DNA from: Bacilli bacterium
GTDB lineage: Bacteria; Bacillota_I; Bacilli_A; JAJDGJ01
Direction of reading: 5' to 3'
Assembly (NCBI GenBank): GCA_031272545.1
Contig: JAISTP010000050.1
Span: 1-41,821 of the forward strand
Length of the DNA stretch: 41,821 nucleotides
The position numbers and the translations under genes are program-made. Of this stretch, positions 12,995 through 26,495 are shown piece after piece. Each line of letters begins with the position of its first letter. Within the stretch, counting starts at the first letter, position 1. The notes under the pieces were generated by a model, which worked only from the letters and a program-made list of their open reading frames with translations, was not told the origin of the DNA and made no database searches.

Positions 12995-14320
12995 ATGAAG
13001 AAAATATTAAAAGTTTTTTTATGCACTTTTTTTATTACTTGCTTAGCTTTATCAAGTAATATTAGTGCTAAACAAATAAATCTTGATGCTAAATTTATTC
13101 AAGGAATAAAAGATGTTGATGATATTGATAATGCTTATCAAATTACAACTGAATTAAATGAAGATGCTGATGAATATGTAGTCAACATTGGTTATGAGAA
13201 CTTAAATAGTGATTTAGGCATCATGTATAATCACTTTAAACTTAATGATGATGTATGGCCAACATTTAGTGCTTATTCTGATTTTATCATTAAAAATAAT
13301 ACTAATAATAAATATAAAATAAGTAAAGTAGAGTTTAATGCGGATACTTTAAATCCGACATATTTTGTTTTTAATGACGCTATTAAAAATGCTGGTTATA
13401 CTTGTAGCACCTTAAAAAATCTTACTCCTGAACAATGGTGGACTATTGTTTCCCAATATTATCATTTAAAAGCACATGAACATAATTCTCGTAATTTATT
13501 AATTGAAATATTAGGCAATAATATTAATAATAATCATTGTTATACTAAAACTAATCGTGATTTCTTTGAATGGAATAATAATGTAATTGGTGATCTAGTA
13601 AAAGATTTTTTATTCAGCGGTACTGAATTAACATTTAATCAAAATAATTTAAATTATGCTTTAGATATTAATGGTACTGCTGGTAATTATAATAAAAATA
13701 ATTTAACGATTAATGATTATTTATTGAACAATTCTTTAGATAAAATAAATAATATGTTTAATGATGGTATTGATAAACAAAGTATAAAACAAACAAAAAT
13801 GATGGTTCTGGTTAATGATGATATCAGTGATGCGACTAGAGGTATGTATTTTGATTTTGGAATAAGATTAACTTTAACTAAAGTAAATGAAGAAACAACT
13901 AAAACATATAATATTAATACTAAAGTAACTAATGGTATTATTGATAAAGATATCTTAAATATAAAAGAAGGAAACAATATTAATATTAATTTTAAAGCTA
14001 AAAAAGGGTATGTACTTCAAAGCATTATAGTAGATAATAAAGCCATTGATATAAACAAAGATATTAATTTAAATAAATTAAAAGATACTTATACTTTTAA
14101 TAAGATTAAGGCTAATCATACTATTCATGTTATCTTTCAAAAAGAAAAGATAGATAAACAAGTAAATAATAATAAGATAACTAGTGATAATAATAAAAAT
14201 AATAAGACTAATAAGAGAATAGTAACTACTGGAGATAACAGTCTAGTAATTTGTATATTTACAATATCATTTAGTGTTATTGGTTTAACCTTATTAAAGA
14301 AAAATCAAATAAATAGTTAA
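12995..14320 (+). CDS. Secreted surface protein with InlB-B-like repeat domain and variant sorting signal
   Basis: A signal peptide (MKKILKVFLCTFFITCLALS, cleavage likely after NISA) starts the 441-residue protein. The large middle part is unknown, rich in Asn, Asp and Tyr. Residues about 300-380 (TYNINTKVTNGIIDKD, GNNININFKAKKGYVLQSI, YTFNKIKANHTIHVIF) resemble the divergent InlB B-repeat/Flg_new-type extracellular module. An Asn/Lys linker leads to VTTGDNS, a hydrophobic helix and a KK tail: the layout of a sortase anchor, but with VTTG instead of LPXTG. The gene is paralogous to 16559-17629. AAAGGAG precedes the ATG. Attachment to the wall is inferred. Confidence 0.78.
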   Translation: MKKILKVFLCTFFITCLALSSNISAKQINLDAKFIQGIKDVDDIDNAYQITTELNEDADEYVVNIGYENLNSDLGIMYNHFKLNDDVWPTFSAYSDFIIKNNTNNKYKISKVEFNADTLNPTYFVFNDAIKNAGYTCSTLKNLTPEQWWTIVSQYYHLKAHEHNSRNLLIEILGNNINNNHCYTKTNRDFFEWNNNVIGDLVKDFLFSGTELTFNQNNLNYALDINGTAGNYNKNNLTINDYLLNNSLDKINNMFNDGIDKQSIKQTKMMVLVNDDISDATRGMYFDFGIRLTLTKVNEETTKTYNINTKVTNGIIDKDILNIKEGNNININFKAKKGYVLQSIIVDNKAIDINKDINLNKLKDTYTFNKIKANHTIHVIFQKEKIDKQVNNNKITSDNNKNNKTNKRIVTTGDNSLVICIFTISFSVIGLTLLKKNQINS

Positions 14321-16529: not shown

Positions 16530-16560
16530 AAAAAAGAAGTGAATAATCACTTCTTTTTTT
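16530..16560. terminator. Bidirectional terminator between ald and the convergent LPXTG gene
   Basis: A 12-bp stem (16530-16541 with 16548-16559) with loop AATAAT and A/T runs on both sides. It ends ald on the plus strand and overlaps the stop of the minus-strand gene. Confidence 0.9.
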
Positions 16561-17629
16561 AATGTCTTTTTAAAATAACAATTCCATTTATCGAAAACAG
16601 AAATAATAAACTTATTATAGTTAAATAATTATTACCAGTTTTTGGTAATTTAGATATTGCTTGATTATTTTTATTATTATTAATTATTACATTTTTTATT
16701 TTTTTATTATTACTATTAATATTAACATCATTGTTTTTATTGGTATTCTCATTTATTGTTGCAGGTAAAGTAATAGTTTGTTTAACATATTCTACTTTAA
16801 TACTATGATTTCTATTCATATTATTAAAAGTATAACTATTCATATTATTAATATTAGATAATTCTTTACCATCAATTATTACTTTACTAATTTCATATCC
16901 ATCATTAGCTTTAAAATTAATACTCCTATTACTTCCTTCAATTATATTATCAATATTAGTATCTATAGTACCATTAACTACTTCTGTACTTATTTGATAG
17001 GTATTAATATGTTCAAATAAAACATCATATCCTACTGCAAAGCTCATACCTCTAGTTCTATTATCTTGTTCATCACTAAAAGTAAAATCATAATAGATAC
17101 TTAAAGTATCATTAGGCATAATAATTAAATTATTACAAACTATATCAATATCTGTTTGAACGATTTGATAAGTATTATTGTAAACATAACTCCATTTAGC
17201 ATTACCAAAATTGGCGATTGTATTATCTTCAATATCTAAATTATTACCGCTTTTAAATGACATATAAAACCAATCTGTTAATACTATTTTCATGTCATCT
17301 TCATTCCATAATTGATTACCACGACTAGCACTAGTAGGTACTATCCCTGCAGGCATAATATTAGTTAACCTTATTGGTTTATTAGTATCATTAGTAATAA
17401 TAAGATTACTGTATACTCCATCTCCTGGGCTAAGATATTGAATAGAATTACTAATTTGATTGTTTAAATCAATCCATAAATCATTATCTTGTGCATCACT
17501 CACTTTAATATAATAATCAGGCATTGCTATAGGATTGCCGATGACATGATCCATATTAAGCGCTTTAATGTTTAAACATAATAAAAAACATAAAATGAAA
17601 CTGATAAATAATAGTATAATTTTTTTCAT
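16559..17629 (-). CDS. LPXTG-anchored surface protein, paralogue of the 12995 gene
   Basis: The protein of 356 residues has a signal peptide (MKKIILLFISFILCFLLCLN) and a canonical C-terminal sorting signal: LPKTG at 328-332, a hydrophobic helix and the tail LKRH. The middle part shares RTRGMSFAVGYDV with ATRGMYFDFGIRL of the 12995 protein, and both then have the same repeat module (here YQISTEVVNGTIDTNI, RSINFKANDGYEISKVI, YTFNNMNRNHSIKVEY). A low-complexity Asn/Lys linker precedes LPKTG. A sortase should link it to peptidoglycan; none is in the window. Function unknown. Confidence 0.85.
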   Translation of the reverse strand: MKKIILLFISFILCFLLCLNIKALNMDHVIGNPIAMPDYYIKVSDAQDNDLWIDLNNQISNSIQYLSPGDGVYSNLIITNDTNKPIRLTNIMPAGIVPTSASRGNQLWNEDDMKIVLTDWFYMSFKSGNNLDIEDNTIANFGNAKWSYVYNNTYQIVQTDIDIVCNNLIIMPNDTLSIYYDFTFSDEQDNRTRGMSFAVGYDVLFEHINTYQISTEVVNGTIDTNIDNIIEGSNRSINFKANDGYEISKVIIDGKELSNINNMNSYTFNNMNRNHSIKVEYVKQTITLPATINENTNKNNDVNINSNNKKIKNVIINNNKNNQAISKLPKTGNNYLTIISLLFLFSINGIVILKRH

Positions 17630-17846: not shown

Positions 17847-17923
17847 GGCGGTTGTGGTGAAGTGGTTAACACAACGGTTTGTGGCACCGTCATTCGTGGG
17901 TTCGATTCCCATCAACCGCCCCA
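17847..17923 (+). tRNA. tRNA-His (GTG)
   Basis: A complete cloverleaf of 77 nt. The acceptor includes the extra G-1 paired with C73, the identity element of tRNA-His (GGCGGTTG with CAACCGCC). The anticodon loop is TTGTGGC inside a CGGT/ACCG stem, the T arm is GTGGG-TTCGATT-CCCAT, and CCA is encoded. Confidence 0.97.
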
Positions 17924-17931
17924 TAGACAAT

Positions 17932-17960
17932 AAAAGTCCCTATTTAAAGGGACTTTTCTT
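17932..17960 (+). terminator. tRNA-His terminator
   Basis: AAAAGTCCCT (17932-17941) pairs with AGGGACTTTT (17948-17957), followed by CTTAT. Confidence 0.88.
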
Positions 17961-18041: not shown

Positions 18042-18070
18042 TTGACATAGGATCAATATTACTTTATGAT
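18042..18070 (+). promoter_or_regulatory. ilvE: ilvE leader promoter
   Basis: TTGACA at 18042-18047, a 17-bp spacer and TATGAT at 18065-18070. Transcription should start near 18077, about 197 nt before the ilvE start codon, so the attenuator below lies fully inside the transcript. Bases 17961-18041 show no feature. Confidence 0.85.
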
Positions 18071-18102
18071 AAGAACAAGCTTTTTTAGAAAGGAAGATAA
18101 TA

Positions 18103-18147
18103 ATGAATAAAAAATTCTATAATTCATTATTAGCGATTATTCTTTGA
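18103..18147 (+). CDS. Putative ilvE leader peptide (14 residues)
   Basis: The reading frame MNKKFYNSLLAIIL ends with TGA. Its Shine-Dalgarno AGAAAGGAAG (about 18087-18096) lies six to seven bases before the ATG, as good as that of ilvE itself. Five of the last six residues are leucine or isoleucine (codons TTA TTA GCG ATT ATT CTT), the end products made by the downstream aminotransferase. The stop codon lies one base before the 5' arm of the first RNA hairpin. This is the layout of the E. coli ilv, leu and ivb leader peptides, though the peptide is much shorter. The peptide itself need have no function beyond being translated. Confidence 0.75.
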   Translation: MNKKFYNSLLAIIL

Positions 18148-18148
18148 A

Positions 18149-18251
18149 GGAAACTTTAATTGAACTTAATTCAATGGAGTTTCCCTTTTGTCATACTTCA
18201 TTGAATAGTCAAGCTTTTAAACTATTAATGAAGTAGTTTAAAAGCTTTTTT
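18149..18251 (+). promoter_or_regulatory. ilvE transcription attenuator with competing RNA helices
   Basis: Four helices can be read. Helix 1:2 pairs 18149-18155 with 18178-18184 and 18159-18164 with 18170-18175. Helix 2:3 pairs 18169-18180 with 18195-18206, 12 bp with one G-U. Helix 3:4 pairs 18194-18204 with 18225-18235, 11 bp with one G-U. The terminator is a perfect 14-bp stem, 18211-18224 with 18234-18247, followed by TTTTATTT. Helix 1:2 excludes 2:3; 2:3 excludes 3:4; 3:4 covers the terminator loop and the first bases of its 3' arm. No T-box core (AGGGTGG) is present. Confidence 0.75.
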
Positions 18252-18273
18252 ATTTAGAAAGGTAGGATTAAAA

Positions 18274-19326
18274 ATGAAAGAGATTAAATTTTATCCAGTA
18301 AAGAAAAGAAAGGAAAAACCACTTAACCCACCAAATTTTGGAACAATGTTTTCAGATTATATGTTTATTATGGATTATGATAGTGATTTAGGATGGCACA
18401 ATTATCGTATAGAAGAATATCATGATATATCATTAAGTCCTGCCGCTGCTTGTTTACATTATGGACAAACTGTTTTTGAGGGATTAAAAGTAATAAAAGT
18501 TGACGATAAACAAGTTTTATTTAGACCTTTAGATAATTTTAAAAGATTAAATAATTCAGCTTTAAGAATGGGTATGCCTAGTATTGATAGTGATTTTTTA
18601 GTAGAAGCATTAATTACTTTACTACAAAAAGAAGGATTATATTGGTATTATGATGTTCCTAATTTTAATATTTATATTAGACCTGTCTATTTTGCGACTG
18701 ATCCTTTAATTGATTTAATAGTTGCTAGAAAATATACTCTCATTATCTTTTTAGCTCCCTGTGCTCCATATCTTGAAAATGCTAAAGTTAACTTGCTTGT
18801 CGAGACTAACTTATCAAGAGTCGCTAGAAAAGGAACAGGAGAAGTTAAGAATGGTGGTAACTATGGTGGTGCCTTTTATGCTAGTAAAATGGCTAAAGAT
18901 AATGGTTATTCTGAAGTATTATGGTTAGATCCAATTGAAAATAAATATATTGAAGAGGCTGGTGGTATGAATATTTTCTTTATCATAAATAATAAAATTG
19001 TTACACCAGCACTTAATGGTTCAATCTTACCAGGTATAACTAGAGATAGTATTATAAAGATTGTTCCATTATTTAATATGGAAGTTGAAGAAAGAGATAT
19101 CAGTATTGATGAATTAGTTAAAGCATATCAAAATAAAGAAATTAACGAAGTATTTATTACAGGAACAGCTGCCAGTGTTAAACCAGTTGATAGTATTACT
19201 TATCAAGATCTTACAATGAATTTTAATTATCATAAAAACAGTACTTGGCTAAAGCTTTATAATTATTTAGAAGATTTAAAACAAGGAAAAATTAAAGATG
19301 TCTATAATTTCTTAGTTAAAGTATAA
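18274..19326 (+). CDS. ilvE: Branched-chain amino acid aminotransferase
   Basis: This PLP enzyme interconverts leucine, isoleucine and valine with their 2-oxo acids, using glutamate/2-oxoglutarate. The 350-residue size and sequence fit the BCAT II subfamily: FGTMFSDYMFIMDY, LHYGQTVFEGLKV, RPLDNFKRLNNSALRMGMP, FYIRP-like NIYIRPVYFATD, and the cofactor region KGTGEVKNGGNYGGAFYAS, where the Lys is the probable Schiff-base residue. SILPGITRDSII and FITGTAASVKPV bind the cofactor phosphate and substrate. GAAAGGTAGG precedes the ATG. No other ilv or leu gene is near, so the attenuator controls this gene alone. Expression is predicted to rise when charged Leu/Ile tRNA falls. Confidence 0.96.
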   Translation: MKEIKFYPVKKRKEKPLNPPNFGTMFSDYMFIMDYDSDLGWHNYRIEEYHDISLSPAAACLHYGQTVFEGLKVIKVDDKQVLFRPLDNFKRLNNSALRMGMPSIDSDFLVEALITLLQKEGLYWYYDVPNFNIYIRPVYFATDPLIDLIVARKYTLIIFLAPCAPYLENAKVNLLVETNLSRVARKGTGEVKNGGNYGGAFYASKMAKDNGYSEVLWLDPIENKYIEEAGGMNIFFIINNKIVTPALNGSILPGITRDSIIKIVPLFNMEVEERDISIDELVKAYQNKEINEVFITGTAASVKPVDSITYQDLTMNFNYHKNSTWLKLYNYLEDLKQGKIKDVYNFLVKV

Positions 19327-23289: not shown

Positions 23290-26200
23290 TTAGTTATCTT
23301 GATATTTTAATTTAATTATGTAATAAGAGGGTATTATAATTAATATCAATAATAGATAACTAATTTCACTAATATCATAACCAGCATTACTTAATTGCTG
23401 ATTATCTTTATTATTATTTACTTTATTATTACTATCTTTATTTTCTTCTTTATTATCTATATTATCTTCATTATCAGGAATATTAGTCATAGAATCATCT
23501 TCTTTATTACAACTTGCTTGATCTTCACATGTATCTTGTTTATCATCATTACTATTGAAATTAGGTTCGGTATTAGTAATAGTCGCATTACTTAATAATC
23601 TATTATTTAATTGCGGTTGAATTATTTCAATATTATAATTTTCATCAGTTGTATCATCATATGCTACAAACTTATTATCTATTAATTTACCTTCTTTAAC
23701 AGTATAAACATTTTCATCTAAAGTATTATTTGAATTAGATACTGGATCAAATATTAGTAAATTATCTATGTTAATTTCCCAATTATTATTGATATCTAAT
23801 TTAATTGGATTTAAATAAGGGATATTATTTTTATATATTTGAAAATATATTTCATTTAATTCTTTACCTTGCCATTTCTTTTTAATAGTTAATGAAGTTG
23901 GTTGAATTAATAAACGACCATTATTGCCTAAATAACCTTTAACATAAGTTTCATTATTTTGGTCTTCTGTAAAAACAGTAGCTTTTACATAATTATTAGT
24001 TTCAGTTAAATTATTACTTTTTAACATTGTACTACTAGCTCTAGTTTTATATTCACCTTGTTTAATATATGGTATTCCATTATCTTTAATACTTATCTTA
24101 GTATAATTAGTATTTACTGCAAGATAAGTTGTATTTAAGTAGCCATTTACATTAGCATCAAAATATTCTTCTTTAGTATAATACTGCTTACTAGCATCAA
24201 AATCTTGAGCTAAGACATAATCATTACCATCAAATTCATATAAACTACTTTCTATAGTGTAATAATAATATGGATTATCTAATGCTGGTTGAAAAACAGC
24301 TAAAGCTTTATTATTATCTTTATCAACAACATCATAATCTGCTTCATAAAAATAATAACCATCATTACTTTTATTATTCTTTAAATATTCATCACTAACT
24401 TTTGATAAATCAAAATCTTTTTGAAAACCAACTGTATAATTATATCTAACAGGAAAAACACTTTCATTAACATCAATATGTAATTGTTCTTGTTTACATT
24501 CTTTTAAATCAACTACATCTGGATCATCACAAGTAGGTTTAACACTTCTTAAAGGTAATAAACTAGCAGGAATACGCATTCTAACAAATTGTTGGTTCTT
24601 AATTAATTCAACAGTAGAACCGCCAGTAAACTTAAGATTAAAGGTAGTATCCTCTAAAGCAGTTGTAATACTAACTAAAGTAAATGATAAATTAGTTTCA
24701 TTTCCTGTCACATTATTATAAGTTCCTAAAAAATAAGCATGTAATTCTGCCACTCCTTTAGCATTACTAGGTTGAGCTAAAACATTACCATTGTTATCAT
24801 AGTATGATTGAATTACATTCATATTTTCATCAATATAATATTTAATAACATTTTTAAAATCATCATCACTATTATAATAAATATTATGAGCTTGATAATT
24901 ACTAATTAATAAATTACTAGCTTTATTCTCATTTATCGTTAATGCTTCTTCTAATACTCCAATATACTTATCCCATGCATCATTATTATCAGGACCACTA
25001 CCTACTACTCTCGCAAAATTACGTCCAAACCATAATTCTCCATTATAAAATATTCCTTTATCATTTTTATATTCCATATATTTACCAATAACATCTGAAA
25101 TAATTACAAAACCTGAATTATTAGGATTATTTGTGGAAATAGTAACATATCCTCCTTCACTAATGATATTATGCGAAATAGAATCTAAAGCATCTTCTAA
25201 AGCTTTTTCATCAGTAGCTGGATAATATTGATCATTATAACGATAATCACTAATATCATTATTATTAACTAAATTAGCTAAATACCATCTATTATTACTA
25301 TTTAATACATTTAAAGGAAAAGATATATCTAAATTATTAGTATAATCATCTAATAGATTTTTTAGGTTGTAATCAACACCATTTAAATTATGATTAATTA
25401 GGACTGCGGAATCTTTTGGATTTAAGACTGCAGCTGCATCATCAGAATTATCTCCAACACCTAAAGTATAGAAAATGGCTTTATCACTACCATTAGGATA
25501 ATAATGTTGAGAAACTTCTTCTTTAATATAACTTGCCGTAAGAATAGTTAATAAATCAGTTCCAATATCACCTTGTCGAGGCACCCCATTACCTGCATCA
25601 TAATTTTGTGCTGTGGCACTATTCATTGTATAGTCCAGCCAACCATAAGTAGGATCACCATCACTCATTAAAATAATAATTGGTTTTCTTTTGATATTAT
25701 AAGTTTGTTTACTATTTTCATCATAATATTCAAAATTAGTGTCTGCATTTAAAAATAATTCACTTGTAGCTTTTAACCCCATTTGGGTATTAGTACCACC
25801 AAGTACATTATAAGAAGAGTAATCTACGATACTATTATCACTTGCTTTAACATCATTATTAACAGAAATAGTATGAGCATTACCAATATTTTCAATTTTA
25901 AAATATGTTTCACTTGAAGAAGAATAATGATTTAATTCCAAAAGAGTAATAGTTTGTTGGCCACTAAATCCAACAACCGCAACTCTATTATATTCATTAT
26001 CGTTTAAAAATTCACTCATCGCCTTATTAAGCGAATTAACTAAAATGTAATCTCTTGTTTTTTCATTCCCATTAACATAGTTTCCATTCATTCCATAAGC
26101 AGACATACTTGCACTTAAATCAATGGTAAATACTGCATCTATAGGAGTTTTTACTTTAGAAACGGTATAACTTTGAGCTAATGATGATAAAGTAACAAGA

Positions 26201-26463
26201 AAGGTATCTGTATCCGCATTAATTGTTTTCTTTCTACTTAAATTATCTTTGGTATAACCAAAAGTAATTGATTTATTAACTGATTTATCAACCCAAACAC
26301 GACCATTATCTAAAGTATTAGGTAAAAAATTATTTTCTATTGTATGTGTTGTTAGATCATTAGTATATTGAAATTCATTATCAAATGTATTTGCTTTAAT
26401 ATTATTTAAATTAATAAATAACATAAATATTAAGCTAATAATAATTAATTTGTTCTTTTTCAT
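23290..26463 (-). CDS. Large von Willebrand factor A surface adhesin with variant sorting signal
   Basis: This is the largest surface protein here, about 1,058 residues. Numbered from the upstream ATG at 26472: signal peptide MKKNKLIIISLIFMLFINLN; a vWA domain at about 108-430 with a complete metal (MIDAS) site, Asp118-Ser120-Ser122 (DLSAS), Thr227 (GGTNTQ) and Asp271 (LMSDGD); a long beta-rich part; a Cna-B-like domain at about 890-980 (LTIKKKWQGKELNEIYFQIY, ENVYTVKEG); an Asp/Asn/Lys linker; then LSNAG (1027-1031), a hydrophobic helix and KLKYQDN. The order resembles pilus tip adhesins. The second ATG is used because AAAGGA spaces correctly only to it. LSNAG departs from LPXTG. Confidence 0.88.
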   Translation of the reverse strand: MKKNKLIIISLIFMLFINLNNIKANTFDNEFQYTNDLTTHTIENNFLPNTLDNGRVWVDKSVNKSITFGYTKDNLSRKKTINADTDTFLVTLSSLAQSYTVSKVKTPIDAVFTIDLSASMSAYGMNGNYVNGNEKTRDYILVNSLNKAMSEFLNDNEYNRVAVVGFSGQQTITLLELNHYSSSSETYFKIENIGNAHTISVNNDVKASDNSIVDYSSYNVLGGTNTQMGLKATSELFLNADTNFEYYDENSKQTYNIKRKPIIILMSDGDPTYGWLDYTMNSATAQNYDAGNGVPRQGDIGTDLLTILTASYIKEEVSQHYYPNGSDKAIFYTLGVGDNSDDAAAVLNPKDSAVLINHNLNGVDYNLKNLLDDYTNNLDISFPLNVLNSNNRWYLANLVNNNDISDYRYNDQYYPATDEKALEDALDSISHNIISEGGYVTISTNNPNNSGFVIISDVIGKYMEYKNDKGIFYNGELWFGRNFARVVGSGPDNNDAWDKYIGVLEEALTINENKASNLLISNYQAHNIYYNSDDDFKNVIKYYIDENMNVIQSYYDNNGNVLAQPSNAKGVAELHAYFLGTYNNVTGNETNLSFTLVSITTALEDTTFNLKFTGGSTVELIKNQQFVRMRIPASLLPLRSVKPTCDDPDVVDLKECKQEQLHIDVNESVFPVRYNYTVGFQKDFDLSKVSDEYLKNNKSNDGYYFYEADYDVVDKDNNKALAVFQPALDNPYYYYTIESSLYEFDGNDYVLAQDFDASKQYYTKEEYFDANVNGYLNTTYLAVNTNYTKISIKDNGIPYIKQGEYKTRASSTMLKSNNLTETNNYVKATVFTEDQNNETYVKGYLGNNGRLLIQPTSLTIKKKWQGKELNEIYFQIYKNNIPYLNPIKLDINNNWEINIDNLLIFDPVSNSNNTLDENVYTVKEGKLIDNKFVAYDDTTDENYNIEIIQPQLNNRLLSNATITNTEPNFNSNDDKQDTCEDQASCNKEDDSMTNIPDNEDNIDNKEENKDSNNKVNNNKDNQQLSNAGYDISEISYLLLILIIIPSYYIIKLKYQDN

Positions 26464-26495
26464 ATTAATCATCCTTTAATTACTAATATGTTTTA

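Follow-up and report, generated by a model that had tools for sequence, protein, structure and literature searches.

A predicted leader-peptide attenuator upstream of ilvE in a member of the Bacilli, with homologues in a sister genus

The ilvE gene in the window (the whole stretch of 41,821 nucleotides that was analysed) is very probably controlled by a ribosome-mediated transcription attenuator that senses the charging of tRNA-Leu and tRNA-Ile. The predicted element (Table 1) occupies the interval from tRNA-His and its terminator (17848-17957) to ilvE, and, as far as can be read from the DNA, it appears to combine the features of its class: a translated-looking frame with a Shine-Dalgarno sequence, codons for the regulated amino acid, and a downstream gene whose product makes the amino acid being sensed. 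A preliminary description of the DNA had set out the promoter, ribosome site, 14-codon frame and pairing arms, and direct reading and scanning found all of these in place; the perfect 14-bp terminator (duplex energy -14.8 kcal/mol) and the identification of the downstream gene as ilvE likewise stood. Two of the helices, named here by the arms that pair, were present at lengths other than those first given: helix 2:3 has 11 bp rather than 12 (-12.2 kcal/mol) and helix 3:4 has 14 bp around one bulge rather than 11 (-11.8 kcal/mol).

Table 1. Features of the ilvE leader in the window.
Feature	Position	Strand	Remarks
Sigma-A type promoter, TTGACA-17-TATGAT	18042..18070	+	Read directly and scanned; 11/12 consensus matches
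Shine-Dalgarno sequence of leader peptide, AAAGGAAG	18089..18096	+	Sequence reading
Hairpin P0	18098..18132	+	18098-18108 pairs with 18122-18132; spans the leader start codon, which is paired to Ser-Leu-Leu codons
Predicted leader peptide, MNKKFYNSLLAIIL, 14 codons	18103..18147	+	ATG 18103, TGA 18145-18147; homologues in relatives
Arm 1	18149..18164	+	Pairs with arm 2; a ribosome at the stop codon reaches into it
Arm 2	18170..18184	+	Partner is arm 1 or arm 3
Arm 3	18195..18209	+	Partner is arm 2 (anti-antiterminator) or arm 4 (antiterminator)
Arm 4	18221..18234	+	Top of terminator stem plus loop; complementary to arm 3
Intrinsic terminator	18211..18251	+	Stem 18211-18224/18234-18247, perfect 14 bp; TTTTTT 18246-18251
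ilvE, branched-chain aminotransferase, the regulated gene	18274..19326	+	PRK13357/TIGR01123 above cut-off

The 211-nt leader folded with a z score of -6.3, none of 200 dinucleotide shuffles being equally stable, and a scan of the region gave three terminator-like sites against 0.1 expected. Promoter-like patterns by themselves were no rarer in the same region than expected by chance. Downstream of the leader frame, the terminator and the antiterminator (helix 3:4) are mutually exclusive; helix 3:4 can act as an antiterminator because arm 4 holds the terminator loop together with the top base pairs of the stem.

Searching the DNA of the family's four genomes for homologues recovered three further leaders in a sister genus, with 73-76% identity and BLAST E values of 1e-21 to 9e-15. 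Two genomes, designated G002 and G003 and belonging to two sister species, each carry one leader upstream of ilvD-ilvA-ilvB-ilvC-ilvE, in which ilvE is the last gene, and G002 has a second copy (L104:3583-6237, G002:C9) ahead of a gene for a class III aminotransferase, behind which lies a membrane transporter-like gene. This recurrence ahead of ilv and aminotransferase genes indicates that the element is not a product of chance, and the leader RNA is better conserved than the IlvE proteins, which are merely 51-55% identical. A TTGACA-17-TAnAAT promoter could also be read before both leaders of G002, and the G003 leader has a promoter that is cut by the contig end. The homologous frames encode MKNKQRYCSIIIII, MEQFNNYRSLLIII and MTYRKPFELLLLLFDEEL. 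In each of the four leaders a short frame with a Shine-Dalgarno sequence has five Leu/Ile codons near its end (18127-18144 in the window), and in each of the three homologues the stop codon lies beside or inside arm 1. In the leader before the aminotransferase gene (MTYRKPFELLLLLFDEEL) the same ATT repeat, read in a different frame, gives Leu instead of Ile; by our own reading, the Ile frame of that leader meets a stop upstream and lacks a start codon. The class III aminotransferase resembles leucine/methionine racemase, below the cut-off, and the five-Leu leader suggests a leucine-related function for the aminotransferase and transporter pair.

The alternative helices of the window leader recur in all three homologues with similar strength. 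In the four-sequence alignment, every counted cell of helix 1:2 and the terminator was paired (103/103), and changes on both sides occurred at four pairs of these two helices, whereas controls with slid partners paired only 36-59%. Compensatory changes affected 3 of the 13 counted pairs of the terminator, and the window has its own compensated versions, both of the terminator and of helix 1:2, where GGAAAC/GTTTCC replaces GGG/CCC. Since arms 2 and 3 must each fit two partners, their sequences hardly vary, and helices 2:3 and 3:4 accordingly offer little scope for covariation. Arm 4 varies at positions that the terminator leaves unconstrained, in its loop, yet still pairs with arm 3 by means of G-U changes and shifted bulges. 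Of what the preliminary description had proposed to look for in relatives, the Leu/Ile-rich frame and the pairings are conserved, and compensatory changes were found in helix 1:2 and the terminator, while helices 2:3 and 3:4 were too invariant to yield much covariation. Coming from four related sequences in two genera, this covariation evidence is modest but consistent.

The arrangement suggests the following sequence of events. When charged Leu- and Ile-tRNA are plentiful, the ribosome would reach the leader stop codon and its leading edge would enter arm 1; with arm 1 blocked, helix 2:3 would form, arm 4 would be left free, and the terminator would fold and stop transcription. Stalling at the Leu/Ile codons would instead hold the ribosome's edge upstream of arm 1, allowing helix 1:2 to form, so that arm 3 would take arm 4 as it emerged and the polymerase would pass the U tract. 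Whole-leader folds at equilibrium blurred these alternatives, the terminator always winning at the end, and it was therefore necessary to fold only the RNA beyond the leading edge of the ribosome (P-site + 15) at successive transcript lengths. The four leaders behaved alike: a ribosome placed on the early Leu/Ile codons left helices 1:2 and 3:4 standing at the stages that precede a complete terminator, and one placed at the stop gave helix 2:3 and then the terminator arm; the last control codon gave an intermediate state. The switch occurred with the leading edge between about 0 and +6 of arm 1 in the ilv leaders and between +1 and +13 in the aminotransferase leader. The switching logic first proposed for the window was in this way reproduced by modelling in four of four leaders. 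In the full-length RNA the terminator was favoured at equilibrium in every state, which means that read-through must be kinetic; classic attenuators are likewise understood as kinetic decisions.

These folds also bear on whether the leader could be a classic four-segment attenuator of the trp or Listeria Rli60 type, in which a stalled ribosome masks arm 1, helix 2:3 serves as antiterminator and transcription ends if the leader is not translated. The closest studied functional relatives do act in this manner, and mutants of Rli60 in the start codon or ribosome-binding site lose ilvD expression (PMC5864092). However, helix 2:3 ends at 18209 and the terminator starts at 18211, and since the two do not overlap or make contact helix 2:3 cannot be an antiterminator; only helix 3:4 overlaps the terminator. 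Moreover, in each of the four leaders a ribosome on any control codon but the last has its edge short of arm 1, or almost so. We therefore consider four-segment logic very unlikely, and favour helix 3:4 as the antiterminator.

No upstream segment that might protect arm 1 paired with it better than shuffled sequence did, in any of the four leaders. As arm 1 has no upstream competitor, a leader left untranslated is predicted to leave the gene ON. Ribosome-free folds of the whole leader agree with this default for the window and the G002 ilvD leader, and are less clear for the G003 and aminotransferase leaders. A hairpin at the position of P0 was found in 4/4 leaders, with differing sequences, pairing the start-codon or Shine-Dalgarno region with codons at and just before the control codons. 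Its significance against shuffles was about p = 0.03-0.07 in each leader, and among combinations of arms each leader's own was generally, not always, the most stable. The probable role of this hairpin is to allow each transcript only about one ribosome translating the leader. On balance we lean towards a distinct five-segment, lineage-restricted design without a protector, in which translation of the leader would be needed for the OFF state, the start-codon hairpin would limit re-initiation and the frame in which the ATT repeat is read would set Ile or Leu specificity.

The near-invariance of arms 2 and 3 could also be expected of a ligand site, in a leader that binds a protein or metabolite in the manner of a riboswitch and whose small frame plays no part. 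That invariance is explained by the two partners of each arm, all four frames have five Leu/Ile codons in the same position, the aminotransferase leader reaching them through another frame of the ATT repeat, and no Rfam family fits; we regard such a leader as very unlikely. In Rfam, no family reached its gathering score for the window leader. Weak matches (MIR1120, the PyrG leader and others) lay far below their gathering scores, and a T-box before ilvE was rejected, the Rfam model (RF00230) giving no match in the window.

When a covariance model was run against two overlapping samples, 395 genomes from the class and 392 from the phylum, scores above 100 bits were confined to the four known members. 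Other matches (28-44 bits), where inspected (G001, G166, G209 and G222), proved to be a tRNA or the end of a gene with an ordinary terminator behind it. Elsewhere in the class, the regions upstream of ilvD at about 26 loci had no frame rich in branched-chain amino acid codons with a terminator, 20 of the loci, checked against Rfam, gave no match, and the examined upstream regions of more distant ilvE relatives had no comparable leader. Across these samples of class and phylum no additional member came to light, leaving four leaders in two genera as the known family.

The window is one contig (C10) of the 1.32-Mb, 98% complete genome of a gut-type bacterium, and the closest named relative that we met was Erysipelotrichaceae bacterium OttesenSCG-928-M19. 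Elsewhere in the window (12995-14320, 16559-17629 and 23290-26472) several genes are predicted to encode surface proteins that carry a signal peptide and a membrane segment at the C terminus; one of these proteins is large and looks von Willebrand-like. In the host the attenuator precedes a lone ilvE, whereas in the relatives the same element heads the ilv operon; ilvDABC may have been lost directly between leader and ilvE, and the surrounding genes differ. The leader could accordingly be a decaying relic that lingers before ilvE after the loss of ilvDABC, as no ilvC or ilvD was detectable in the host genome and ilvE is the last gene of the operon that the leader precedes in relatives. Against this, the window copy retains every helix, including its own compensated helix 1:2 and terminator, and its helix 1:2 (-13.7 kcal/mol) is the strongest among the four leaders; we consider decay highly improbable.

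The preliminary description had held that low-GC Gram-positive bacteria usually control such genes by T-box or CodY. For the host genome the first part is borne out, with 12 T-box matches (RF00230) elsewhere, preceding serS, a methionine-pathway gene, valS, leuS, metG, ileS, cysS, asnS, asnA, thrS and alaS (gene names from reading the proteins), and the second is not, no CodY being found there. Two tandem T-box elements lie upstream of asnA, for asparagine synthetase A (L101; G000:C15:43935-44380).

Leader-peptide attenuators of branched-chain amino acid genes are already known in low-GC Gram-positives (Listeria and Staphylococcus), and the earlier view that this type of control, and so short a peptide, would be unusual there has to be given up. 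The tested ilv-leu attenuator Rli60 of Listeria monocytogenes has a peptide of 13 aa (PMC5864092); it resembles the present family in its very short branched-chain peptide, its ribosome-mediated action and its place before ilvD in a low-GC Gram-positive, and differs in its four segments, against five here, with super-attenuation shown by mutants, and in having CodY control on top. In Staphylococcus aureus, genetic evidence supports an ilvD attenuator with a 26-aa peptide, and a nonsense change in this leader was selected as derepressing (PMC5794164), which fits a default-ON design; Ile/Leu codons and a terminator, there before ilvD, are shared, whereas the longer peptide, a different proposed antiterminator pairing with the U tract and CodY control are not. 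The his attenuators predicted in Erysipelotrichales (PMC9413887) are also of leader-peptide type, and their order is probably that of the host or a neighbouring one; they have His codons and precede his operons.

The his leader of Salmonella has a helix, C:D, that we take to correspond to helix 2:3. Of its segments A-F, B:C and D:E give read-through, E:F is the terminator, and segment A makes untranslated RNA terminate (PMC4046918). As in the ilvE leader, the terminator there is governed by two alternative helices that lie upstream of it, and B-F map onto 1:2 plus 3:4 versus 2:3 plus terminator here. The sequences are unrelated, the control codons here are for Leu/Ile, and segment A is absent, so that the predicted untranslated default is ON, not OFF.

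What is new is the protector-less design, the hairpin at the leader start codon, the relative that reads Leu, and the retention of the element on a lone ilvE. The finding adds a conserved family of branched-chain amino acid leader-peptide attenuators in a low-GC lineage that has T-boxes on leuS, ileS and valS and in which no CodY was seen. One cell thus appears to read Leu/Ile charging with two RNA devices, T-boxes and a leader peptide, and the design predicts that abolishing leader translation would turn the gene ON, opposite to what happens in the Listeria and his attenuators.
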